Assembly (NCBI RefSeq): GCF_010728925.1
Contig: NZ_AP022608.1
Coordinates: 2,170,001-2,234,000 of the forward strand
Length of the DNA: 64,000 bases
DNA from: Mycolicibacterium gadium
Lineage (GTDB): Bacteria; Actinomycetota; Actinomycetes; Mycobacteriales; Mycobacteriaceae
Reading direction: 5' to 3'
Shown: positions 10,172-61,898 of the stretch, piece by piece
Numbering within the stretch: the first letter of the stretch is position 1
Layout: the number at the start of each line of letters is the position of its first letter
The notes under the pieces: generated by a model
Told to the model about the DNA's origin: nothing
The model's database searches: none
What the model saw: the letters and a program-made list of their open reading frames with translations, nothing else
Made by a program: the position numbers and the translations under genes

Positions 10172-11737
10172 GTGCAACTCGCAGTTCATGCCGGCTCGCC
10201 GGATTTCGATCTGTCGCCCAGCCACTCGCCGTCGACTCGCCGCAGCACAAAATTCATGGTTGCTGGCGTTGCGATGGCAAGTGCAGGCGTGATCGCGGTC
10301 AGCCCGGTAGCCCCGCCGATGCCCACCGTCCAGGACGTCCAAGAGCGCGTTACGCAGGCGGCGGTCCAGCTCACGGCGGCCACCAACCCGCTCATCGCGT
10401 GGCAGCAGACCATCGCCAACACGTTCGCAAGCCTCGACACGCTCATCGACGGATCCTCGTTGGCGACGGACAACCTGGTCGGGGCGCTGAGCACCGGCTA
10501 CATCTTCCAAGAAGTCGCGAACGTCCTGATTCAGAACACCCTCAACCCGGGTCCTCTGCTGGATGAGATCATCAATTTCAATTCCAACTTCGGTCCCGTG
10601 ATCGATACCGCGATCACCGACACCATCGACCGACTGACGCTTGCCGCCCAGCAGTTCCCGGAGGTGCTCACCAACACGCTCACGTACCTGTCGCAGGGGC
10701 AGTTCGTCGAATCGTTCTCCGAGATCAACGGCTGGTTCGTGCTTCGGGTGTTGGGGGGCGTCCGTCCGCTGATTCCGATCCTTGACATCCCCGGTAACTT
10801 CGCTGCTGCCCTGCCCGGCGTGGAAAAGCTGGACGACCTACTCAAGGTCGTGTCCGAGTTCGCGCTCACCAAGGCGATCTTCGAGCCGGTCCTTGGCGGG
10901 ATCCTCCAGTCGGCGGAGCTGTTGGACGCCGCGCGGGCGGCGTTCGGCGAGGGGGACTATGTCGACGCCGTCAGCAATCTGGCGAACATCCCGGTCCTGG
11001 GGTTCAACGCCCTGGTCAACGGAATGACGCCGGCCGGCACCACCTCGGAGTGGCAGGGTCTGCTCGACCGCGGTCTGGTTTCCTACCTCGCGGTCACATT
11101 TACCAACCTGATCGCGAACGCGATCAAGCCGCCGGTACCCGTCGACACGCTGGCCTTCCGCGCGAACGACACTCTGGAACCGCAGGCCCCGACCGACTAC
11201 AGCTTCGGTGGTAAGACCTACACCTTCGAGAACAGTGCGGTGGGTCTCGACAACTCGGGCGCGGGTGACGGCGCCGGCGCGGGTGACGGCTCAGGCTCCG
11301 GTGCTGGCACGGGCGATGGCGCGGGCGCGGGTGACGGCACGGGCTCCGGTGCTGGCGCGGGTGACGGCACGGGCTCCGGTGCTGGTGACGGCACAGGCGT
11401 TGGCGCAGTTGACGACTCCGACGACGGCGAGGATGCCGGCAGCGGTGACGGCGAGGGTGCCGGCAGCGGTGACGGCGAGGGTGCCGGCAACGATGACGGT
11501 GACAACGGCTCGGGCAGCGGCGCGGGTGCCGGCTCGGCCAGCGGCGCGGGTGCCGGCTCGGCCAGCGGCGCGGGTGCCGGCTCGGCCAGCGGCGCGGGTG
11601 CCGGCTCCGGCTCCGGCTCGGGCAGCGGCTCCGGCTCGGGCAGCGGCTCCGGCTCCGGCTCCGGCTCGGGCAGCGGCTCCGGCTCGGGCAGCGGCTCCGG
11701 CTCCGGCTCGGGCTCGGGCTCGGGCTCGGGCAACTAA
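10172..11737 (+). CDS. Exported Gly/Ser-repeat protein, candidate iron-regulated cell-envelope protein
   Basis: 521 residues. GTG 10172 follows AGGAG at 10162-10166. Residues ~22-50 form a signal-like segment (basic 'TRRSTK', then hydrophobic '[18 protein letters not shown]'). Residues ~50-345 are an Ala/Leu/Ile-rich domain ('[16 protein letters not shown]', '[16 protein letters not shown]') that resembles the globular domains seen in exported mycobacterial hypothetical proteins. The C-terminal ~155 residues are a low-complexity Gly/Ala/Asp tract turning into an uninterrupted Gly-Ser run with no cysteine. It is not a PE or PPE protein: the N-terminal motifs are missing. An IdeR box upstream suggests induction under iron starvation. 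Function unknown; surface exposure and a part in iron or heme capture are guesses. Confidence 0.7.
11258..11734 (+). repeat. In-frame Gly-rich coding repeats
   Basis: Imperfect tandem units encode Gly-Ala-Gly-Asp, then Ala-Gly-Ser-Gly-Asp-Gly-Glu-Gly, then a 24-base unit (GGCGCGGGTGCCGGCTCGGC + CAGC) repeated three times near 11519-11590, ending in 6-base GGCTCC/GGCTCG/GGCAGC units coding Gly-Ser. Such tracts tend to change length by slippage. Confidence 0.85.
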
Positions 11738-31244: not shown

Positions 31245-32954
<1,710 letters not shown>

Positions 32955-36851: not shown

Positions 36852-36916
36852 TCAACTCGAAGCAGTTTGAACGAAATTTGTCAATGTCGGACATCTAGAC
36901 TGTAGGGGTAGTGTCG

Positions 36917-37906
36917 ATGACACAAGCGATACCGAGTTTCGCGGTGATCCAAGACGCCGTACGTTTGGCCTGCCGCGCTCCGTCGCTGCACAATAGCCAG
37001 CCATGGCGCTGGGTGGCTGAAACTTCGACACTCCATCTTTTTGCCGATTTCACGCGAGTGATGAACGCCGCTGACCCCGAAGGCCGCGAGATCTACCTCA
37101 GTTGTGGCGCCGCACTCGATCATCTGACGGTTGCGATGGCCGCCTTCGGATGGGAAGCGAACGTGCAGCGCTTTCCCGATCCTGACGATCCTCTACACGT
37201 GGCGGCGGTCACCTTCGATTCGGCGCCGCCGGGAATGGCCGCAGACAGTCGAGCGCACGCGCTGGCGATCGGCAGGCGCTACACCGACCGGCGACCCTTT
37301 GAGGCTCCTGCTGATTGGGCGAGATTCGAAGTGCTGCTTCGTCAGACCGTCATCCCCCACCACGTGATGTTCGACACCGTGCTCGATAATGCGCGGCCCA
37401 CTTTGGCGACCGTCTCCCGACTTACCGCGACGATCCGGACGAACGACCCCTCCTATCGAGCGGAAATGAATTGGTGGACCTCACCTTTCGCATCTGGGGA
37501 CGGTGTCCCGCAATCCGCGTTGTTATCAGTCGAAGCAGCAGGACATATCGATGTGGGCCGACGTTTTCCCAGTCCGTACGCCGCTACCCACGCTGAAGAC
37601 GTCGAAGTTGACCGGTCCAAAATCGTGGTCCTGTCCACCCATCACGAAGATGCGCGGCTGGACGTATTACGTTGCGGAGAGGCGCTATCAGCGGTACTCC
37701 TCCAATGCACGGCAAGCGGGCTGGCGACGTGCACGCTCACACATATGACCGAACTGGCTCAAAGCCGGGAGATTGTCCGTGAATTGACGGGTCAACGGGG
37801 AATGCCTCAGTTGCTGATCAGGATCGGATATCCCCGGCCCGCGGATGCGGCATTGGCCGCTACACCGCGCAGGCCGCTGGCCGATGTGCTCGAACGACGT
37901 GGCTAA
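36917..37906 (+). CDS. acg: Acg family nitroreductase-like protein (Rv2032/Rv3131-like)
   Basis: 329 residues from ATG 36917 (GTG 36911 possible; AGGGG is eight bases before the ATG). Strong likeness to M. tuberculosis Acg: 'ACRAPSLHNSQPWRW' near 20, 'GCGAVLDH'-type 'SCGAALDHLTVAMAA' near 70, 'FPDPDDPLHVAAV' and 'GLATCTLTHMTEL' near 280. Acg proteins have a doubled nitroreductase fold whose FMN site is covered by a lid, and are thought to store or sequester FMN rather than reduce substrates. A core DosR-regulon member, fitting the upstream box. Confidence 0.9.
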   Translation: MTQAIPSFAVIQDAVRLACRAPSLHNSQPWRWVAETSTLHLFADFTRVMNAADPEGREIYLSCGAALDHLTVAMAAFGWEANVQRFPDPDDPLHVAAVTFDSAPPGMAADSRAHALAIGRRYTDRRPFEAPADWARFEVLLRQTVIPHHVMFDTVLDNARPTLATVSRLTATIRTNDPSYRAEMNWWTSPFASGDGVPQSALLSVEAAGHIDVGRRFPSPYAATHAEDVEVDRSKIVVLSTHHEDARLDVLRCGEALSAVLLQCTASGLATCTLTHMTELAQSREIVRELTGQRGMPQLLIRIGYPRPADAALAATPRRPLADVLERRG

Positions 37907-42619: not shown

Positions 42620-43059
42620 TCGTCCCGCTCCGCCGACGGCGCTGATTTCTGTACCCCGTCCGACGGCTCCCCCGGCGTGGACCGCTCTGGAACAACGCGC
42701 AACGCCAGCGCACCGAGTCCGAGCACCGACACCGCAGGAGTGAGGAACAGCAGTATCGCCCAGGCGAGCCCGACACCCACCCCGCTCAGCGCCCTCACCA
42801 ACGTGAATACCGCGACGAGCCAGCTGATGCCGCCGGCAAGGACCGAGACCACGGCCGCGACGGCCATCGCGCGGCCAAGCCCGTAGAGCCGGTATCCGGT
42901 AGCGGCCAACAGAGTCGCCGTGGGAGCCAGAATGACCAGGGCACCCAACCACGGCGCGTCCGCACCGAGGCGCAACCCCGGCACGAGCACGAGCGTCGCG
43001 AGGCCGGCGGCGCCCACGGTGCCGGCGACTGCGCTACCTCGACCATCCGTCCTAGGCAT
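42598..43059 (-). CDS. Small integral membrane protein in the triacylglycerol operon
   Basis: About 153 residues from ATG 43059 (ATG 43071 also in frame). Four hydrophobic segments are visible (~10-30, 38-55, 62-82, 92-118) and a hydrophilic tail. The start overlaps the stop of the DGAT gene and the end overlaps the PlsC-like gene, so expression is tightly linked to lipid acyltransferases. No family recognised; a lipid-droplet or membrane-adaptor role is only a guess. Confidence 0.65.
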   Translation of the reverse strand: MPRTDGRGSAVAGTVGAAGLATLVLVPGLRLGADAPWLGALVILAPTATLLAATGYRLYGLGRAMAVAAVVSVLAGGISWLVAVFTLVRALSGVGVGLAWAILLFLTPAVSVLGLGALALRVVPERSTPGEPSDGVQKSAPSAERDEWPTNLR

Positions 43060-44425
43060 GGCCCAAGCCAAGCGCCAACACCTCGTCGAACCCGGCGACG
43101 AGGCTGTCCATGAATACGTCGTGGTCGGGAATCGCGCCGGTATCTACGTCGATGCCGAGCGTGCACACGTCCACGTACGTCAGCAACGTGACGTTGACCG
43201 CCGCGCCGATCGTCGGGCCGAATGCGTACTGCGTCAACACCTTGGCGCCACCGAGGAACACGGGCACCGGTATCCCCGGCACGTCGCTGCACAGGAAGTC
43301 GACATTGCGCAGGATCGAGCCGATGTACCAGCGCGGCATCATGTTCAGAGCACCGGCGATCCACTGCGTGTAAGGCAGCGACTTCTCGTGCCGCACCTTG
43401 GCGGTCCTGTCGTGGATCTGGCGGATTCGCTCCTCGGGGTCGGCGGTGCCGACCGGCACGTCGAACCGCATGATGGTGATGCGGTTGCCGCCCATGTCGT
43501 CGCCCTCTTCGCGCAGGCTCATCGGCATCGTCAGGTGAAGGTCGCCGACCGTGACGCCGTGCTTTTCGTGGTAGAGGCGCAGCCCACCGGCGACGCCGGC
43601 GACGAACGCGTCGTTCAACGCACCGCCGCCCTGGTGCGCGGCGGCCCTCAGCTGTTCGAACGGGACTTCGAGCACGCCGAGCCTGCGGACCAGGCTGCGC
43701 TTGTTCATAAGCGACGAGCCGGTCCGGCTGACCGGGCGCATGGTGCGGTAGACCGAGGCGGCCAACTCGGCTGCCGACGAAGCGGTTTTCACCGGGTTCA
43801 GAATGCCGTCGGCAATCAGCTTCGGAGCCGTCCTCAGAGCCCCCGTCACCACGTCCGTCACCAAGCCGGCGCCGTATCGCGCGGTGTCGCGGTAGCCGCG
43901 TAGCCACGGCGGCGGGGGCTCCTCGGGCAGTGCCGCCACCGAACTGTGTTTGTCGGGCACCTCGGACAGATCGAAGAGGATCATCCCGATCTGGATGCCT
44001 CCGACTCCGTCGGTCAGCGCATGATGGAACTTGAGCAGCATTGCCGCGCCGTCGTTTTCGAGTCCGTCGATCAGCGTGGCCTCCCACAGGGGGCGGGCTC
44101 GGTCGAAGTCCTCCATGGCCGCGACCCGCGCCATCTCCAGCACCGTGTCGATGGTGCCGGGCGAGGGTGCCGTCACTCGGCGCATGTGGAAGTCGAGGTC
44201 GAAGTCGGGGGCGTGCTCCCACCTCGGCGGTGCGGGTGGCGGCGATGGAACGACACGCTGGCGCACCATCGGCACCATGCGCGAAATGATGTCGAAGCGA
44301 TCGCGCACTTTGTTCCAGTCCGGCGATCGGTCGAGCATGATCACCGTGACCACCGTGGATCGCAACCGAGGATCGCTTTCCATCGCCCAGGTGAAAGCAT
44401 CACTGCTTCGCATGAATTCGGTCAT
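43052..44425 (-). CDS. Wax ester synthase/diacylglycerol acyltransferase (WS/DGAT)
   Basis: 457 residues. The catalytic HHxxxDG motif is 'FHHALTDGVGG' near 135; other family blocks are 'RARPLWEATLIDGLENDGAA' near 115, 'GALNDAFVAGVAGGLR' near 290 and 'SDVPGIPVPVFLGGAKV' near 385. It transfers acyl groups from acyl-CoA to diacylglycerol or alcohols at the membrane. It starts inside the tgs1 stop (ATGA). The C-terminal 'SLVAGFDEVLALGLG' is echoed by a gene remnant at 60444-60497. Confidence 0.9.
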   Translation of the reverse strand: MTEFMRSSDAFTWAMESDPRLRSTVVTVIMLDRSPDWNKVRDRFDIISRMVPMVRQRVVPSPPPAPPRWEHAPDFDLDFHMRRVTAPSPGTIDTVLEMARVAAMEDFDRARPLWEATLIDGLENDGAAMLLKFHHALTDGVGGIQIGMILFDLSEVPDKHSSVAALPEEPPPPWLRGYRDTARYGAGLVTDVVTGALRTAPKLIADGILNPVKTASSAAELAASVYRTMRPVSRTGSSLMNKRSLVRRLGVLEVPFEQLRAAAHQGGGALNDAFVAGVAGGLRLYHEKHGVTVGDLHLTMPMSLREEGDDMGGNRITIMRFDVPVGTADPEERIRQIHDRTAKVRHEKSLPYTQWIAGALNMMPRWYIGSILRNVDFLCSDVPGIPVPVFLGGAKVLTQYAFGPTIGAAVNVTLLTYVDVCTLGIDVDTGAIPDHDVFMDSLVAGFDEVLALGLGHA

Positions 44426-52187: not shown

Positions 52188-52649
52188 TCACAACCAATGC
52201 TCTCCACGAAGATGGGCTGTCGCACCGTCCAAGTTGCGCTGCGCCGCGGGGGTCAACCCCATTGCGAGTCCAAACTCGTATCCCCTGATCGCGAGGACAT
52301 ACACCTCCGGCAGCCGCTGAAAACACTGCTGGCAGGTCGCCATGATGGCGGGGATCGAGATGGCGTGCGACGTGAAGGTGAAGTCCATTCGGGGCGTTGG
52401 GCGGCCCAAGGTGAACGATTCCACCGAAGCCTCTTTGGTGGAATCGACGAACAACACCCGTTTCTTGTTGCTGATCAGTTCGGCGTCCTCCAGCAGAAGC
52501 TGATAGCCCCGCTGCATCTCCGAGCTCGAGCAAAGACCCAGCGCCTGAAGCCAATCGACGAACGCCCAGCCCAAGCCGTCATCTTGGCGACCCACGTTGC
52601 CGATGCCATAGATCAGACAGGAATCGTTGTCGAAATCGTCGAGTCTCAT
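52188..52649 (-). CDS. hoxW: Hydrogenase maturation protease HoxW
   Basis: 153 residues from ATG 52649, which overlaps the hoxH stop. The peptidase M52 (HycI/HoxW) pattern is seen: 'IYGIGNVGRQDDGLGWAFVD' near 13-32 with the first nickel-binding Asp/Glu position, 'VLFVDSTKEASVE' near 66, and 'FTFTSHAISIPAIM' with the His near 95. It removes the C-terminal peptide of the large subunit after nickel insertion. Its position directly after hoxH fits. Confidence 0.85.
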   Translation of the reverse strand: MRLDDFDNDSCLIYGIGNVGRQDDGLGWAFVDWLQALGLCSSSEMQRGYQLLLEDAELISNKKRVLFVDSTKEASVESFTLGRPTPRMDFTFTSHAISIPAIMATCQQCFQRLPEVYVLAIRGYEFGLAMGLTPAAQRNLDGATAHLRGEHWL

Positions 52650-54127
52650 GAACCTGACCCCGAGCGGACACGTTCGTTGATCACCAATCCCGCCGCATCG
52701 CGGACCGTCACGATCAGCGGCATCTGGCCGAAGGCGTGCGTCGCACAACTCAGGCAGGGATCGAAGGCACGGATTCCGACTTCGATCGCATTCATCATCC
52801 CTTCGGTGATCTCGCCGCGACCCACCAGGTAGTCCTCGGCCACCGAGCGCACCGTGCGGTTGAGAACCTGATTGTTGTGTGTCGTGGCCACAATGAGATT
52901 GGCGAAGGTGATGTCCCCGTCCGGACCGGCGCGGTAGTGATGAAGCAACGTGCCGCGAGGTGCTTCGACGACACCGACGCCCTCGCCGACCCAAGCGCCC
53001 GCCGCGGGCGTGACGATGAGATCCTCGTTCTGCAGATCGGGGTCGCGCAGCAATCCTTCGATCACTTCCGCGGCGTGGAGCACCTCGATGGTCCTCGCCC
53101 AGTTGGTGTGCAGCGTCATATTGTTGGGGGCGCCGCCGGTGTAGGCGTGGAACCGCTCCAGCGCCTCCTGCGCGCGCGGAGTCGACAGCGTCTTGGTCAC
53201 ATTCATCCGCGCAAGCGGGCCCACCCGGACCGAGCCCTTCTCCCTGCCGAGGTCCTTGAGGAAGGGGAACTTCATGTAGCTCCACTCTTCGACGGCTTCC
53301 GAAAAGTGATCGAGGTAGTCGTGATAATCGAATTCACCGACGATGCGCTTGTTCTCGTCGACGATACGCAGGGCGCCGTGGTAGTAGTCCACGTTGCCGT
53401 CGGCGTCGACCAGGGACATGTTGAGGGCGGGAACGTTGGCGAACCCGTCCACCGCGCTTCGGTTCTTTTCATGGAAGTCGTAGAACAGTTGAAGCCCGTC
53501 CTGCGCGTAGTCGATGATCTCGTCGACCGACGGGAGTCCCTCCTCCCCGTTGAGCAGACGGTCGCATTCGGCGCGGCTCAAGTTCTTGTCGACACCTCCG
53601 GGCACCGAGTTGATGCCGTGCATCCTCCTGCCGAAGACGGTCTTGATGACCTCCTGGCCCCACTTGCGCAGCATGATCACTCTTCGCATCAACGCCGGGT
53701 CGGCCTCGATGAGACCGAGAAGATTGCGCTGCTCGGGCGCGGCATCCATCCCGAACATCATCTCGGGGACCACCAAGTAGAAGTATGCCGTCGCATGAGA
53801 CTGCAGCATCTGCGCGTAATGGCCGAGCCGACGGATCTTCTCTGCTGTGCGCGTTATGGCGACTTCTGAGTTCACGCCGGCGCCGATGATGTCGTCGAGC
53901 ACTTTGGCGCCAGACAGGTGGTGACTGACGAAGCAGATTCCGCAGATGCGCTGCATCAGCATCGGCGCCTCCCAGTACGGGTGGCCCTGAACGAACTTCT
54001 CGAAACCGCGGAACTCGACGACATGCAGCCTGGCGTCGACGACGTTGCCGTCGTCGTCGAGGTTCACGGTCACCTTGCCGTGGCCCTCGATGCGGGTAAC
54101 GGGGTCGATGACGAGCTTTCTGCTCAC
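52646..54127 (-). CDS. hoxH: NAD-reducing [NiFe] hydrogenase large subunit HoxH
   Basis: 493 residues. The nickel ligands are in the L1 motif 'RICGICFVSHH' (C62, C65) and the L2 motif 'DPCLSCATHAFG' (C458, C461). H464 is followed by a 29-residue extension, the peptide HoxW should cleave. The C-terminal motif and partner genes place it in group 3d (bidirectional, NAD(H)-linked, cytosolic). Phe follows the L1 cysteines where Pro is usual in this group. It catalyses H2 oxidation or proton reduction. Accessory hyp genes are not in the window. Confidence 0.92.
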   Translation of the reverse strand: MSRKLVIDPVTRIEGHGKVTVNLDDDGNVVDARLHVVEFRGFEKFVQGHPYWEAPMLMQRICGICFVSHHLSGAKVLDDIIGAGVNSEVAITRTAEKIRRLGHYAQMLQSHATAYFYLVVPEMMFGMDAAPEQRNLLGLIEADPALMRRVIMLRKWGQEVIKTVFGRRMHGINSVPGGVDKNLSRAECDRLLNGEEGLPSVDEIIDYAQDGLQLFYDFHEKNRSAVDGFANVPALNMSLVDADGNVDYYHGALRIVDENKRIVGEFDYHDYLDHFSEAVEEWSYMKFPFLKDLGREKGSVRVGPLARMNVTKTLSTPRAQEALERFHAYTGGAPNNMTLHTNWARTIEVLHAAEVIEGLLRDPDLQNEDLIVTPAAGAWVGEGVGVVEAPRGTLLHHYRAGPDGDITFANLIVATTHNNQVLNRTVRSVAEDYLVGRGEITEGMMNAIEVGIRAFDPCLSCATHAFGQMPLIVTVRDAAGLVINERVRSGSGS

Positions 54128-55473: not shown

Positions 55474-57280
55474 GTCGTCTCACCCGACTGCAGTTCGATC
55501 CGCGCCTTCTCGTGCCCGGCCAGCGCGGCATCGAGGTCGAACGATGCCAACAGGGTGTGTTCCCCGGTGCGCAATCTTTGCCGATAGATCTCGGGGAACT
55601 TCTCGAGTGTGGTCAGGATGGGATTGGCGGCAGTCGCCCCGAGGCCGCACCGACTGGTCGCGTGCACCAGGGCACCCCACCGGGCCACCTCGTCGAGATC
55701 CTTTACTACCGCGTTGCCTGCGATGACGAGTTCGACCTTGCCGTGCAGATCCACGGTGCCCGCCCGGCAGGGCACACAGATGCCGCAGGATTCGTCGGCG
55801 AAGAACTTGGAGTAATCCTTGACGCAGTCCAGCAGGTCACGGTTGGAATTGAAGATGGTGACTGCTCCGTTGCACGGGATGTCCTCGTACGCGATGCGGC
55901 GTCGGCCATCAGCCGCAACCGACACGCACTCCCCGATGGCCCGCTGATCTGGACCGCGCGGGCGTCGGCCGCACCGACCATGGTCAGTACTTCATCGAGG
56001 GTGATGCCCCACTCGACCTCATAAACTCCCGGACGATTGCAGTCTCCGGCGACGCTCAACAGGCGGGCGCCTGCCGAGTCGGGGGTACCCATGCGCCGGA
56101 ACCATTCGGCGCCTTCTTCCATGACGCGGGTTGCGGCAGCTAAGGTCTCGACGTTGTTGACGCTGGTCGGTTTGCCGAGGTAGCCCTCCCGAACGGGGAA
56201 GGGCGGTTTCAGCCGGGGGGTGCCCCGATTGCCTTCACAGGACTCGATCAGCGCAGACTCTTCACCACAGACGTAGGAACCGGCACCCAGCTGGATACGG
56301 ATGTCGAAGTCGAAACCCGATCGCCCGCCGATACTGCGTCCCAGCAATCCGTCGTCGCGGAGTTGCTGAAGCTGGCCTTCCAAATAGCGCTTCAGATAGA
56401 CGTATTCAGCACGGAGATAGACGATTCCGTGAGAGCTGCCGATCGCGTAGGCCGCGATGACCATCCCCATGAACACGTCTTTCGGTGATCGGGTCAGGAG
56501 CGCACGGTCTTTGAACGTGCCCGGCTCCCCCTCATCCGCGTTGCAGATGACGTACTTCTCGTCGCCAGGCGCGGCCCTGCACAACTGCCACTTCAACCCC
56601 GTTCGAAACCCTGCACCGCCGTAGCCCCGCAGCCCGGATTCGCTGACAACGCCGATCGTCTGCTCGGGCGTGCCGGCGAGGCAGTTCTTGAGCAACGTTT
56701 GGTAATCCGGCTCGCCGCGGAAGAACACGGGGCCCCGCGTGTGGACATTGGACTCCACCAGAGCCTCGACGTAGGCGATGCCATCGTCGGGCAGCCCCTC
56801 AGGGTTGGCGATATCGGCGGCGGTTTTACCCGTTTTCAACTGCGCGATGATGGTCGCGACGCTGTCAGGTGTCAGTCGGGTGAACACCACGCTGTCGACC
56901 ATCATCGCGGGTTCCTGATCGCTGAGCCCGATACACGGCGTTTCGAAAAGACCGAATATCCCGTCCGCGTCGGTCTCCCCGAAGCGAGCCCCGGTCTGGC
57001 GCTCGAGCGCATCGTAGACCGCTTGAAAACCGTTCATCTTGGCAACCACGGTGTTGCTCAAGTAAATCCGGTGGCGTCCGGCTGGCGTGCTGTGGAAGAA
57101 GTGATAGAAGGAAGCCGTCTCGACGATGTCCAACGGAGTCCGATTCAACCCAATCGCCATCTGCGGCAGATGCTCGGCGGGGATGTAGCCGTACAGATGT
57201 TGGACATCCCACAGGATGTCGATCAGCCGCGTTCCGTCGTAGCGGTAGCGCCGGAGCACAGTGTCGATATCTGCGTTCAT
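55470..57280 (-). CDS. hoxF: Hydrogenase diaphorase subunit HoxF (NuoE-NuoF fusion), frameshifted
   Basis: Two overlapping frames make up one gene of ~602 codons. The first (57280 to ~55935) has a NuoE-like part (1-160), then NuoF-like FMN/NADH motifs 'GYGGAGFRTGLKWQLC' and 'NADEGEPGTFKDRA'. After '...ISGPSG' the frame is lost; the second frame (from ~55930 to 55470) continues with 'ECVSVAADGRRRI' and the [4Fe-4S] motif 'ESCGICVPCRAG'. One extra G in the GGGG run (55931-55934, C on the plus strand) would restore it. In the NuoE-like part three of four [2Fe-2S] cysteines are absent (only 'ETPCIGLSDQEPAM' keeps one). Role: NADH/NAD+ exchange with the hydrogenase. Either a pseudogene, an assembly error or slippage. 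Confidence 0.85.
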
Positions 57281-57324
57281 CTATCTGCGTTCGCCCGTGC
57301 GGATCCGATTGACGCGATCGCCAT
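57277..57324 (-). CDS. Short leader ORF (15 codons) coupled to hoxF
   Basis: ATG (complement of 57322-57324) is preceded by AGGAG (57331-57335) at six bases. It encodes MAIASIGSARANADR and its TGA overlaps the hoxF ATG in an ATGA. hoxF itself has no good ribosome site, so translation may depend on re-initiation from this leader. Confidence 0.5.
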   Translation of the reverse strand: MAIASIGSARANADR

Positions 57325-57752
57325 CTGAAACTCCTCTCGGCTGTCGACCGATGTCCCGGGGCGGACCCGCCGCGTTACGTCAGCCTCCAGCGTGGGTACG
57401 CCGAAGAAACAGCGGTGCCGCTGATATCGGCACCAATCCGCTGCCCCGACGGCCGGCGAAGCGTCCCACCATTCACGATAGTGGCCACGGCGCGGAGCGG
57501 CGGGCTTGCGAGCGATCTACTGCTTGTCGCCGTCGGACTTTGGTCAGGGCCCGCTCGGGGATGTCGCGCGTTGCGATTCAACTGCCTGGACCATGTAGAA
57601 CCTCTCATCGTGGAATCGTTACAGCTGTCGACGCTATTGATCGCTGGGGCCGGCCACTACCGACGAAGGTCACCCCGCGAGTGGCGATGGTCCCTTCGTG
57701 CTTGTCCGGCACCACGTGCGTTTCCGCCCCTGACGTCGTTGCCTGCTGGTCG
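57325..57752. other. Divergent promoter region of hox and the 57794 gene
   Basis: 430 bases without a supported gene. Contains a weak DosR-like site CGGACTTTGGTCAG (57534-57547), which could serve the hox operon, and scattered GC-rich inverted repeats. No other element recognised. Confidence 0.4.
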
Positions 57753-57766
57753 GGGACCATAGACCC
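57753..57766 (+). promoter_or_regulatory. DosR box upstream of the 57794 gene
   Basis: GGGACCATAGACCC matches 12 of 14 core positions and ends 27 bases before ATG 57794. Confidence 0.7.
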
Positions 57767-57793
57767 TAGGTCGGTCCGGCCTGTCCGTCCACG

Positions 57794-58474
57794 ATGAACC
57801 TCATGACCACCTCTGATTGCGGCCCGCTTCTCATCGACTCGGCGATGCCCGCCTACGACGCCGTGATTGCCGAGCACATGGTGGTAGCGGCGGGCCCGGC
57901 TACGACATTCGCCGCGGCACGCGAACTCGACCTGCTCACCGTGCACTCACCGCTGCTGGACGCGTCGATGTGGATACGAGGGCTGCCGGCCCGACTCACG
58001 GGACACGCTGTGACAACCGCGCCCAAGATCGTCATCGCCACGGACATGGGACTGCCGGGCTGGACGTTCCTCGGCGAACGCTCGAACCGCGAGATCGCTT
58101 TCGGCGCCATCGGCAGATTCTGGAAGCCCACCATCGAGTGGCTCGATGTGCCGGTCGCTGACTTCCGTGGTTTCGACGAACCTGGTTGGGGAAAGATCGC
58201 TGCGAACTTCTCCATGCTGCCCTACGGCGTCTCTGCGACGCTGCTCACTTACGAATGTCGCACGGTGACAACAGATCCCGAGTCTCGTCGCCGGTTTCTG
58301 GGTTACTGGCACCTGATCCGGCCGTTCGTCGGCCACATCCTGCGGGCCACCCTTCGACAGATCGCAGCGAACGCCGAAGGGTCCACAGCACGCGACACCT
58401 CCGCATCGGGCGTGGAACTTGAGGCTGATGATCAGGGACCAAGGCCTTCTCAGCGCCGTGAGTCATGTCGATAG
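57794..58474 (+). CDS. Hypothetical protein, possibly SRPBCC/DUF2867-like
   Basis: 226 residues. Conserved-looking blocks are 'PAYDAVIAEHMVVAAGPATTF', 'GERSNREIAFGAIGRFWKP' near 95 and 'GWGKIAANFSMLPYGVSATLL', a pattern of START-like lipid-binding folds. The C-terminal ~35 residues are hydrophilic and low in conservation-type residues, and the gene ends at TAG 58472-58474, exactly where the OTCase homology begins, so its 3' end may have been altered by the same deletion. The DosR box upstream predicts hypoxic induction. Function unknown. Confidence 0.65.
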   Translation: MNLMTTSDCGPLLIDSAMPAYDAVIAEHMVVAAGPATTFAAARELDLLTVHSPLLDASMWIRGLPARLTGHAVTTAPKIVIATDMGLPGWTFLGERSNREIAFGAIGRFWKPTIEWLDVPVADFRGFDEPGWGKIAANFSMLPYGVSATLLTYECRTVTTDPESRRRFLGYWHLIRPFVGHILRATLRQIAANAEGSTARDTSASGVELEADDQGPRPSQRRESCR

Positions 58475-59329
58475 CCTCGTCACGAGAAGAGTTCGACGCG
58501 GACTCGGTGCGCGTTCGAGGTGGCGGCATACGACGAGGGCGCCCACGTGGCGTACATAGATCCCGCGTCGTCGCAGATCGGACACAAGGAGTCGATGAAG
58601 GACACCGCCCGCGTGCACGGACGGATGTACGACGCGATCGAGTACCGGGGTGCGGGACAGAAGATCGTCGAGGAGCTGGCGGAGTATGCGGGGGTGCCGG
58701 TGTTCAATGGGCTCACCGATGAGTTCCATCCCACCCAGATGCTCGCCGACGTCCTCACGATGACCGAGCACTGCTCAAAACCGTTGACCGACATTGCTTT
58801 CGCGTTCGTCGGTGACGGCCGCAACAACGTCGCCAATTCGCTGCTGCTGGTGGCGGCCAAGCTCGGCATAGACGTGCGCATCGGTGCGCCACCGGACCTG
58901 TGGCCGAACGATGACCTGGTAGCGCAGTGTCGGGAGTTCGGCGCCGCATCCGGGGCTCGGATCATGGTCACCGACGATCCGTTCAAGGCGGTGAGCGGTG
59001 TGGACTTCATCTACACAGATGTGTGGGTGTCCATGGGCGAGCCGGTGGAGACGTGGGGAGATCGGATAGACCTGCTGCTGCCCTCTCAGGTCAACGCGAA
59101 ATCGATGACTGCGGCAGCTAATCCGCGGGTGATGTTCATGCACTGCCTGCCCGCCTTCCATAACTCCGAGACCGCGGTGGGTGCGCAAATCGCTTCGCAG
59201 TATCCGCATCTGTCCGACGGCATCGAGGTCACCGAGGATGTCTTCGAGTCTGCGGCGAACATTGCCTTTGAGCAGGCCGAAAACCGGATGCACACGATCA
59301 AGGCGGTCCTCGTGTCCGCGCTGGCCTGA
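58475..59329 (+). pseudogene. Ornithine carbamoyltransferase, N-terminally truncated
   Basis: In-frame homology starts right after a TAG with '[20 protein letters not shown]', the carbamoyl-phosphate motif STRTR, and continues to the normal C-terminus ('[11 protein letters not shown]', '[13 protein letters not shown]', 'MHCLPAFHN'). The first ~45-50 residues expected of OTCase are absent in all frames. The first possible start codon is GTG 58520, after STRTR, so any product lacks the substrate loop and is probably inactive. The '[10 protein letters not shown]' block resembles catabolic (ArcB-type) enzymes; with carbamate kinase next door it would have split citrulline to yield ATP. Confidence 0.8.
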
Positions 59330-59346: not shown

Positions 59347-60252
59347 GTGCGAATCGTGATCGCCCTGGGTGGCAACGCGTTGCTGCGACGGGGACAGCCG
59401 ATGACCGCGGAGAATCAGCGCGCCAACATCCGTGTCGCGGCGGAGGCGATCGCCCAAGTGGTGCCTGGAAACGAGATCGTCGTCGCGCATGGCAACGGCC
59501 CGCAGGTTGGGTTGTTGGCGCTGCAGGCGGCGGCTTATCACGAGGTCGCGCCGTATCCCCTCGATGTGCTCGGGGCGCAGACCGAGGCGATGATCGGCTA
59601 TGTCATCGAACAGGAACTCGGCAACCTACTGCCCGCCGACCAGTCGCTCGCCACGCTATTGACGATGATCGAGGTCGACCGCAACGATCCGGCGTTCGCC
59701 CATCCCACCAAACCAATCGGCCCGGTCTATGACCGGGAAACCGCGGAGCGCCTCAAGGCCGTCAGCGGCTGGGCCATCGCACCGGACGGCGATAAGTTTC
59801 GGCGAGTCGTCGCCAGCCCAAAACCCAAGAAAATATTCGAGATTCGATCGATCCGGAGCCTGGTGGAGCAGGGCGCCATCGTGATCTGCGCGGGCGGGGG
59901 TGGAATTCCGACGATGTACGACGAAGCCGGCTTACTGCACGGCGTGGAGGCGGTCATCGACAAGGACCTCGCCTCGGCTCTGCTGGCCGAACAACTCGAC
60001 GCCGACCTGCTCGTCATCGCCACCGACGTGGACGGTGTCTATACCGATTGGGGCACACCGCGACAGGCGCGCCTCGGGCGAGTAACCCCCGAAGAGCTGG
60101 CCGCTCTCGACCTCCCACCGGGATCGATGGGGCCCAAGGCTCACGCTGCGTGCGGCTTCGCGCAATCCACCGGCAATGAGGCGGTCATAGGATCGCTCAC
60201 TGACATCGCGAAAATAATCGCCGGGGACGCCGGCACCCGCGTGAGGACCTGA
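59347..60252 (+). CDS. arcC: Carbamate kinase
   Basis: 301 residues from GTG 59347, 17 bases after the OTCase stop. Amino-acid-kinase landmarks: '[12 protein letters not shown]' at the start, '[16 protein letters not shown]' near 45, '[12 protein letters not shown]' near 180 and '[12 protein letters not shown]' near 225. It makes ATP from carbamoyl phosphate and ADP, the energy-yielding step of fermentative arginine/citrulline use. No arginine deiminase gene is in the window, and the partner OTCase is truncated. Ends 40 bases before a DosR-like box. Confidence 0.9.
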
Positions 60253-60291
60253 CCACCGCCACCGCATGATATGACCTTCGACCGTCGACCA

Positions 60292-60305
60292 GGGTCGTTC
60301 GGCCC
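60292..60305 (+). promoter_or_regulatory. DosR-like box upstream of candidate small RNA
   Basis: GGGTCGTTCGGCCC matches 12 of 14 core positions. Its centre is 43-44 bases upstream of the start predicted from the -10-like GATAGT (60330-60335), the usual activator spacing. Confidence 0.5.
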
Positions 60306-60342
60306 TCCGATCGGGTACCCCGACGGTGCGATAGTTAGTGGT

Positions 60343-60430
60343 GCCGGGCAACCGGCGATCTGCCCGAAGGCCGGAAGCCGTGGCTGAGTGGGGGACTCAG
60401 GACCGGGCCTCCGCCTTCGGGCAGTTTTTT
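60343..60430 (+). ncRNA. Candidate DosR-regulated small RNA with intrinsic terminator
   Basis: No coding frame is convincing here. CTGCCCGAAGGC (60360-60371) pairs perfectly with GCCTTCGGGCAG (60413-60424), followed directly by TTTTTT (60425-60430). The 41-base apical region holds an inner hairpin CTGAGT-GGGGG-ACTCAG (60384-60400). Upstream are GATAGT at 60330-60335 and a DosR-like box. A transcript of about 85-90 bases is predicted. At least the terminator is solid; the independent promoter is inferred. It could instead be just the arcC terminator, though an intervening GC-rich stem that long with an inner hairpin is unusual. Confidence 0.5.
60360..60430 (+). terminator. Rho-independent terminator (12-bp stem + T6)
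   Basis: The 12-base perfect stem and T6 tract are among the strongest termination signals in the window. It would end transcripts from arcC or from the small RNA. Confidence 0.75.
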
Positions 60431-60443
60431 GTTAGAACGCGGG

Positions 60444-60497
60444 CTAATTCGCGACTGCGAGCACGTCGTCGAAGCCGGCGACGAGGCTGCGAGAAAG
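60444..60497 (-). pseudogene. 3' remnant of a WS/DGAT gene
   Basis: On the minus strand the bases encode 'SLVAGFDDVLAVAN' and a stop, nearly the same as the C-terminal 'SLVAGFDEVLALGLG' of the DGAT at 43052-44425. No WS/DGAT sequence precedes it, so it is a decayed or recombined gene end. Confidence 0.5.
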
Positions 60498-60598
60498 ACC
60501 GGTATCGGGTCGAGGACTCCGGCGATGGTTTTGGGTGTAGGACAGCGACTACTCGACCAGGGTGAAAGTGTCGGTTTCGGTTAGGAATTCAGCCAGGG

Positions 60599-60829
60599 CT
60601 ACGCGGCGACGGTCACTTCGATAGACAGGTATTCAGCGATGGCGTGCGCGGCCGTCCAATTGCCGGTGCGCACCGTGCGGGCAAGGTCGTCGACCAGGGG
60701 GCTACGGGTGTCCAATTCCGCTAGCCATGCCGATACCGCGGCGACGATGCCATCAGCCGATACGCGGACGATCCGTCCTGCATGCAGGCGGTCAGTGAGC
60801 TGATAGGTTCTCACCCGCTGTGACTTCAT
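60599..60829 (-). CDS. Small hypothetical protein
   Basis: 76 residues from ATG 60829 (MKSQRVRTYQLTD), with GGGAGG six bases upstream; a start 27 bases earlier lacks such a site. No signal peptide or membrane helix. The middle contains 'ADGIVAAVSAWLAELD' and 'TAAHAIAEYLSIEVTVAA'. It resembles no family I can name. It is divergent from the universal stress protein gene and may share the DosR-box region at 60945-60981. Confidence 0.5.
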   Translation of the reverse strand: MKSQRVRTYQLTDRLHAGRIVRVSADGIVAAVSAWLAELDTRSPLVDDLARTVRTGNWTAAHAIAEYLSIEVTVAA

Positions 60830-60967
60830 GGGTGGCCTCCCCGTTGAGCGGACCATCTGATCACACCACTCGCGAACATCGGCGACGTAGGGGCCAAGGC
60901 ACGGTGCCCGCAGTGCTTTCGGCCTGGTTTTCGGCGCGCCGGGCGAGGCCCTTTGGCCGAACGGGTA

Positions 60968-60981
60968 GGGACTAAAGACTC
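60968..60981 (+). promoter_or_regulatory. DosR box upstream of universal stress protein gene
   Basis: GGGACTAAAGACTC matches 12 of 14 core positions and ends 35 bases before ATG 61017. A weaker second site (AGGCCCTTTGGCCG) lies at 60946-60959. Confidence 0.7.
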
Positions 60982-61016: not shown

Positions 61017-61898
61017 ATGTCTTCGATTGCTCCGCCGGAAATCGTGGTAGGCGTCGACGGGTCACCCGCGGCCAAGGTTGCGGTCGATTGGGCGGCACGC
61101 GACGCCGCACAGCGCGGCGCAACGCTCACCCTGGTCCACGTCGTCAGCAGTGTCCTCGGTTCCTTGTCCCACACGCCCGTGCCTACCGGTATCGGAAAAT
61201 GGCAACAGCAGAAGGCTCACGAAGCCGTTGACGAGGCGATGGCTGTCGTTGCAGCGGCGCAGCGGGACACCGGCCCGTTGGAGGTCCGCACCGAAATCTA
61301 TTACTCGTCCGCCGTTCCCACGCTCGTCGACATGTCGAAGGGCGCGGGCATGGTCGTAGTGGGTAGTCGCGGCCACGGCGCCATCGGCAATCTGCTTGGT
61401 TCGGTCAGCGCAGGCGTCGTACAGCACGCGCACTGCCCGGTGGCGGTCATTCACGACGAAGATCCGTTGATGCCGCATCCGGCGCAAGCACCGGTCCTGG
61501 TCGGGATCGACGGCTCCCCCGCGTCCGAGCTGGCCACCGCGATCGCGTTCGATGAGGCGTCACGCCGAGGCGTTGACCTCATCGCCCTGCACGCATGGAC
61601 CGAATTCGGGGTGGGCGACTTTCTCGGGATGAACTGGCTGGAGATGAAGTCGTCGGAGGATGCAGCGCTCGCTGAGCGACTGGCCGGATGGCAGGAGAGC
61701 TACCCGGACGTGACGGTCCGACGGGTTGTGGTCTGCGATCACCCCGCTCGCACGCTCGTCGAGCACTCGGAACAGGCCCAGCTGGTTGTCGTCGGAAGCC
61801 ACGGCCGTGGCGGCTTCGCCGGCATGCTCCTCGGCTCGGTCAGCGCCGCGGTGGTTCAGTCAGCGCGCATGCCGGTGATCGTCGCGCGGCAACCGTAG
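61017..61898 (+). CDS. Universal stress protein, tandem UspA domains (Rv2028c/Rv2005c-like)
   Basis: 293 residues made of two UspA domains: ~6-145 ('EIVVGVDGSPAAKVAVDWAA', 'VVGSRGHGAIGNLLGSVSAG') and ~155-293 ('PVLVGIDGSPASELATAIAF', 'VVGSHGRGGFAGMLLGSVSA'). Each has the G-x2-G-x9-G(S/T) ATP-binding loop. Tandem USPs are prominent in the mycobacterial DosR regulon and restrain growth or signal energy status. It converges with pfkB as in the hspX-pfkB-Rv2028c group of M. tuberculosis, although orientation differs. Confidence 0.9.
   Translation: MSSIAPPEIVVGVDGSPAAKVAVDWAARDAAQRGATLTLVHVVSSVLGSLSHTPVPTGIGKWQQQKAHEAVDEAMAVVAAAQRDTGPLEVRTEIYYSSAVPTLVDMSKGAGMVVVGSRGHGAIGNLLGSVSAGVVQHAHCPVAVIHDEDPLMPHPAQAPVLVGIDGSPASELATAIAFDEASRRGVDLIALHAWTEFGVGDFLGMNWLEMKSSEDAALAERLAGWQESYPDVTVRRVVVCDHPARTLVEHSEQAQLVVVGSHGRGGFAGMLLGSVSAAVVQSARMPVIVARQP

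Follow-up and report, generated by a model that had tools for sequence, protein, structure and literature searches.

Our analysis of a 64,000-nucleotide stretch of the Mycolicibacterium gadium genome (contig NZ_AP022608.1, positions 2,170,001 to 2,234,000, hereafter "the window") makes it very likely that the DNA 3' of the carbamate kinase-like gene arcC holds a small RNA gene in its own right that belongs to the DosR regulon. This gene would comprise twin DosR-like boxes, a -10 element and an RNA of about 89 nucleotides (nt) that pairs with other RNAs via a loop and is a member of a larger family. A DosR-controlled small RNA had been suggested here by an original prediction made from the window alone, and it is the best reading of the data because the twin boxes stand at fixed spacing, the -10 element and the stems are conserved, the latter with covariation in the family, the RNA is independent of arcC, and the genome encodes a DosR ortholog.

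All parts listed in the original prediction, i.e. a DosR-like box, GATAGT 24 bases further on, a 12-bp stem with an inner hairpin and a T6 run, were recovered where it had placed them (Table 1), and its distance of about 43 bases between box centre and start agrees with the value found here. Its inventory was incomplete, however, since a distal box and a 5'-terminal hairpin had been overlooked. The stringent DosR consensus (PMC6448022) has 11 fixed positions, of which the proximal box matches 9; the two deviations are at A4 and T6. The pattern GGGNCNTTNGNCCC has a single exact match in the window, the proximal box itself, and 15 matches with at most one mismatch against 6.2 ± 2.5 expected; GGGNCNTTNGGCCC occurs seven times in the 5.96-Mb genome and the reversed pattern twice. 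A search for a sigma-70 type -35/-10 pair returned none; the -35 is frequently missing from mycobacterial promoters (PMC6448022). The fold of 60320-60440 was matched by only one of 200 shuffles (z -3.2).

Table 1. Features of the window (window coordinates; RNA start and end are predicted).
Feature	Position	Strand	Remarks
Distal DosR-like box ATGACCTTCGACCG	60271-60284	+	start -71 from predicted RNA start; 7/11 consensus positions
Proximal DosR-like box GGGTCGTTCGGCCC	60292-60305	+	start -50, centre -43.5 from predicted RNA start
-10-like GATAGT	60330-60335	+	ANNNT = 60331-60335 (ATAGT)
Predicted small RNA, 89 nt	60342-60430	+	fold -57.1 kcal/mol
5'-terminal hairpin, 6-pair stem, GCAA loop	60342-60357	+	fold, ortholog comparison
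Long hairpin	60360-60424	+	fold
Outer perfect 12-bp stem of long hairpin	60360-60371 / 60413-60424	+	encloses second hairpin
Apical hairpin CTGAGT-GGGGG-ACTCAG	60384-60400	+	specific to the window's branch; letters, ortholog comparison
T6 directly after stem	60425-60430	+	likely intrinsic terminator
arcC, carbamate kinase-like, amino acid kinase family	59347-60252	+	upstream neighbour
Degraded WS/DGAT (tgs) gene, 3' end	60444-60500	-	convergent; stop 60444-60446; far edge approximate
Universal stress protein gene	61017-61898	+	DosR-like one-mismatch match at 60968-60981
GAF sensor kinase gene	31245-32942		
Acg-family oxidoreductase gene	36911-37906		
WS/DGAT gene	43052-44425		
Hydrogenase-like gene	52646-54127		

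When 396 genomes of the genus were searched at the DNA level, the element was found at E ≤ 1e-6 in four, including the window's own (G000, G145, G169 and G213). M. tusciae DSM 44338 was added via an arcC search, which brings the window's branch to five sequences; Mycolicibacterium tusciae and Mycobacterium neglectum are the nearest named relatives of the window's genome here. Among these five orthologs, variation is confined to motif positions 4, 6 and 9 in the proximal box and to the first and third bases in the -10 element. The stem of the 5' hairpin is kept, once via a G-U pair, with a loop variable in length and letters; the GGGGG apical loop is invariant, one pair of its stem being broken in G213, and the T-run is a T5 in three orthologs. 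Between pairs of sequences, 2-4 of the 66-67 sites of the long hairpin are different (3-6%), as against 16-26% of arcC fourfold sites (one-sided Fisher p 2e-4 to 3e-3, six pairs tested); between the window and G145 the counts are 4/67 and 43/163, respectively (p 2e-4). Unconserved stems in relatives were one of two outcomes that, by the original prediction, would refute it; the stems are conserved, and the reading stands.

A covariance model built exclusively from the five sequences of the window's branch (R1) matched 24 of the 396 genomes at E ≤ 0.1. Apart from the close orthologs and a match inside an open reading frame (L133), which was dropped as chance, the matched RNAs are 112-125 nt long; they share the 5' hairpin and outer stem with the window's branch but have a larger interior. 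A second model (R2), built from 14 R1 matches with the window's branch excluded, detected 51 of the 396 genomes, or about one in eight, at E ≤ 0.01, 32 of them at E < 1e-20 and two of them doubtful. On the window, matches to R1 (60342-60435) and R2 (60342-60434; 32.2 bits, E 5.5e-5 for its genome) both span the predicted RNA. R2 also matched the close relatives G145 (E 1.1e-5) and G169 (E 2.5e-4), and G213, which is outside the 51, scored 28.3 bits when its own locus was searched.

Covariation was counted over 41 of 53 sources (39 distinct), leaving out the window's five-sequence branch as well as L171, L172, L175, L178, L179, L180 and L182. These 41 aligned members measure 112-136 nt and have a multi-branched interior; 97.0% of their 1,537 cells are standard pairs (shuffles 94.2 ± 0.2). 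Double-sided changes occur in 16 of the 41 pairs against 3.5 ± 1.1 in shuffles, none of 500 shuffles reaching 16, and structures shifted by 1-3 columns have double changes in 2-8 pairs. Such changes also affect 5 of 25 pairs in a mixed alignment of 19 sequences that includes the window's branch. The compensatory changes sought by the original prediction are present in the wider family; for the window's own branch, see below.

Distant family members share with the window the twin DosR-like boxes, the -10 element, the 5' hairpin and the outer stem, which resembles UCUGCCCGAAG/CUUCGGGCAGA in the family and, in the window as elsewhere, directly follows the 5' hairpin. Compared with these members, the window's branch has a shorter RNA with one G-loop hairpin in its interior and a U-tail, and is devoid of UUGACCCACC; none of eight distant members checked 3' of the stem has a T-run like the window's. 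The segment UUGACCCACC, unpaired in folds of distant members, is found in exact form at 35 of 53 sites and in near-exact form at 3 more. Since it is absent from the window's branch (5/5) and from ten further sites (L138, L162, L172, L173, L174, L176, L177, L178, L180 and L182), it is common rather than family-defining. An idea from a by-eye look is that the G-loop may have arisen by inversion of the inner hairpin.

At gathering scores, Rfam has no match in the window or in the loci of seven relatives; a P10 match adjoining the element (60463-60518, minus strand) is under the cut-off. The known mycobacterial small RNAs 6C (B11/MTS2822), MTS0997/Mcr11 and MTS2823/Ms1 have no Rfam match in the window and are not known to be DosR-fronted. 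No description of the family was found in the accessible parts of the open-licence literature. Genome G190 holds two family members, L171 and L172, and L171 sits between WS/DGAT-like and stress-protein-like frames (named by eye), like the window's island. Locus L179 (G157) has the inner part of the family RNA beside a dehydrogenase-like frame, with boxes and 5' hairpin absent, and may be a degenerate, dying copy.

The promoter layout recurs across the family. From the 53 extracted sites, L182 (G342), a 51-base R2 match without boxes, was dropped as chance and L179 was kept, leaving 52. With limits of at least 8/11 consensus positions and a start at -48 to -50 for the proximal box, and at least 7 and a start at -69 to -73 for the distal one, both boxes are in place at 44 of 52 sites compared to 3 of 21,946 random places of the same loci; the distal box by itself is in place at 48. 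ANNNT starting at -13 to -10 is found at 46 of 52 sites and at 9.7% of control places. The exceptions for the box pair are L154, L173 and L177 (proximal score 7), L171, L175, L178 and L180 (two boxes closer to the model start, as if the RNA began later), and L179. The window's branch keeps the family box distances (-50, -71) despite its divergent RNA.

The original prediction had described the element as a functional analogue, at a different locus, of DrrS (MTS1338) of M. tuberculosis. The locus is indeed different, but the relationship was probably understated: the window RNA would be a divergent member of a genus-wide family that probably includes DrrS, a placement drawn from published features rather than from a comparison of letters. 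DrrS, also called ncRv11733, is DosR-dependent, with a DosR site 34 bp upstream of its start (TSS2) and the -10 region gccAGTATTggtgatA; its 108-109 nt form a 5-bp GC-rich 5' stem-loop from nt 1 and a long imperfect stem, and its 3' end is CU(C) in ATCCTcatcct (PMC5360333). The window RNA resembles it in the DosR site, which likewise overlaps the -35 region, in the 5' stem-loop from (predicted) nt 1 and in the long imperfect stem. DrrS differs in that one of its DosR sites is clear and the other weak, that it lacks a U-tract and that it is cut from a longer transcript, as opposed to two boxes, a T6 terminator and about 89 nt in the window. Because it has this T6 end instead of a processed 3' end, we do not file the window RNA as a DrrS; it is a probable relative that works alike.

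It is possible, though in our view unlikely, that the window's family is real and that DrrS is no member of it, the likeness having arisen by convergence. DrrS entered this comparison by description, none of 180 genomes (0/100 and 0/80; 140 of the genus) contained the exact DrrS -10 string, and the DrrS gene lies elsewhere, between rv1733c and rv1735c. Moreover, published papers confine MTS1338 to highly pathogenic mycobacteria (PMC6901956, PMC10178195, PMC12840758), report M. avium to be without it (PMC3774663) and M. smegmatis to encode no DrrS homologue (PMC5360333). Against convergence stand the equal order of parts and the similar size. At L130, the 5' hairpin is preceded by gccATAGTggtgatT, with -10 flanks gcc...ggtgat as in DrrS, and at L171 the outer stem ends in ATCCTC. 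Furthermore, nt 56-70 of MTS1338, which bind cydC mRNA according to one study (PMC11446857), are comparable in place to UUGACCCACC, whose first nucleotide is 61 in L171 and 70-86 in the other carriers. On balance we lean towards DrrS being one branch of an old, genus-wide DosR-driven family instead of having originated in pathogens. In this family the scaffold of twin boxes, capped 5' end and long stem would be constant and the pairing segment swapped, and the window's environmental branch, with its GGGGG loop and own terminator, would regulate other targets within the oxygen-starvation response.

We also considered whether the abundant M. avium RNA igMAV_1034-1035 is the same RNA; this is unlikely, MAV_1035 being listed as an ortholog of Rv1754c. 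Family relatives lie between SRPBCC-like and dehydrogenase-like frames, from which we take Rv1754c to differ; these relatives presumably include the M. avium group.

The scenario of a mere arc operon terminator (3' untranslated region) with DosR-like boxes that are chance or relic is improbable. The element does lie 107 bases past the arcC stop codon and ends in a stem plus T6, and the G213 element likewise follows a plus-strand operon. Nevertheless, boxes, -10 element, 5' hairpin and long hairpin are co-conserved at family loci with frames other than arcC. In G213 the arc genes are missing; the RNA, at 90% DNA identity, comes after the last arcC residues, and these after a frame named by eye as dihydroorotate-dehydrogenase-like. 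The RNA therefore outlasted its neighbour at least once. A terminator role may exist alongside the RNA role. Even less credible is a role as the 5' leader or attenuator of a gene downstream. The stress protein gene lies about 590 bases further along the same strand, and the next downstream frame is same-strand at L171, L172 and L180, too. However, this gene has a DosR-like box of its own in the window, a terminator stands between, and a convergent gene comes next in the window (a remnant), in G145, in G176 and in class-2 loci with a dehydrogenase-like frame. A small protein gene can be dismissed almost entirely: the original prediction had seen no coding frame, and a GTG-started frame does span the hairpin, but it is no conserved gene because its start codon varies among the five orthologs (GTG, ATT, GTG, GCG, GTG) and its stop is unshared.

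Several points weigh against a DosR-controlled small RNA of this family. Transcription and the 5' end are predictions from sequence, and the likeness to DrrS is a likeness to a published description. Position 6 of the proximal box is G in the window and C in four orthologs, and the published weak consensus also disagrees there; in M. tusciae the T-run is interrupted (TTCTGT). Within the window's branch, 0 of 57 predicted pairs show double changes, because the five sequences are too similar. The palindromic stem feeds the model score, the window's minus strand reaching 26.2 bits with R1, and the R2 rows were picked through R1, so that the R2 match back to the window is not fully independent; family members new to R1, and the promoters, are by contrast independent. 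Finally, box distances and score limits were fixed after inspecting the box scan, and the 52 sites include many from close relatives, so that the counts are not counts of independent events.

With its stress protein, Acg-family, hydrogenase-like, WS/DGAT and sensor kinase genes (Table 1), the window looks like a DosR-type island. Four Acg-family genes score above the cut-off in the genome, three of them at 2.207-2.256 Mb, in or near the window. The DosR ortholog lies 23 kb downstream (contig positions 2,253,345-2,253,995); it has receiver and LuxR-type domains and aligns with the DevR/DosR structure PDB 3c3w over 211 residues (383 bits). Remnants of the convergent WS/DGAT gene extend over 60444-60600 (minus strand) and are present in G213, G169 and M. 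tusciae, too; in G145 the gene is intact (454 amino acids), and an integrase-core gene lies immediately 5' of arcC. The window's arcB (58520-59329) is truncated by about 65 residues at its N-terminus, and the stretch 57280-58520 showed no arcA-like frame; the arginine deiminase pathway may be broken in this genome. In M. tusciae (L039), arcA-, arcB- and arcC-like frames are consecutive. An 85-amino-acid frame at 60599-60856 (minus strand) has no Pfam or NCBIfam match, and similar DNA seems to lie 3' of arcC in L044, L046 and L048 (by eye). A tRNA-like ARAGORN match with a four-base anticodon at 11574-11668 is probably spurious. No tRNA is called at the hairpin, which speaks against a tRNA origin, and plasmid and phage records gave no DNA match.

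The element probably works as follows. Under hypoxia or nitric oxide, phosphorylated DosR would bind the two sites, about two helical turns apart, and recruit RNA polymerase to the -10 element of a promoter without a -35. An RNA starting near 60342 would be shielded at its 5' end by the terminal hairpin; in DrrS the 5'-terminal hairpin contributes to an hours-long lifetime (PMC5360333). Transcription would terminate at the long hairpin and U6, and the RNA would pair with target RNAs, in the window's branch most likely via the GGGGG apical loop. In distant members, UUGACCCACC is a plausible pairing segment. Because the window's branch lacks UUGACCCACC and has the invariant GGGGG loop and the U-run, the RNA under this switch seems to have other targets there. 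The window RNA would then be a shortened, diverged member of a mycobacterial DosR-fronted family probably including DrrS/MTS1338.

DrrS/MTS1338 has been much studied, and its reported restriction to pathogens has been argued to be a sign of a role in virulence (PMC10178195, PMC3774663). Our analysis describes a family that would share its regulator, promoter layout and architecture in about fifty sampled genomes, with M. tusciae and M. neglectum among the carriers, and a covariance model now exists for this family, which is missing from Rfam. Such a spread would point to a general function in oxygen starvation, open to study in other strains.
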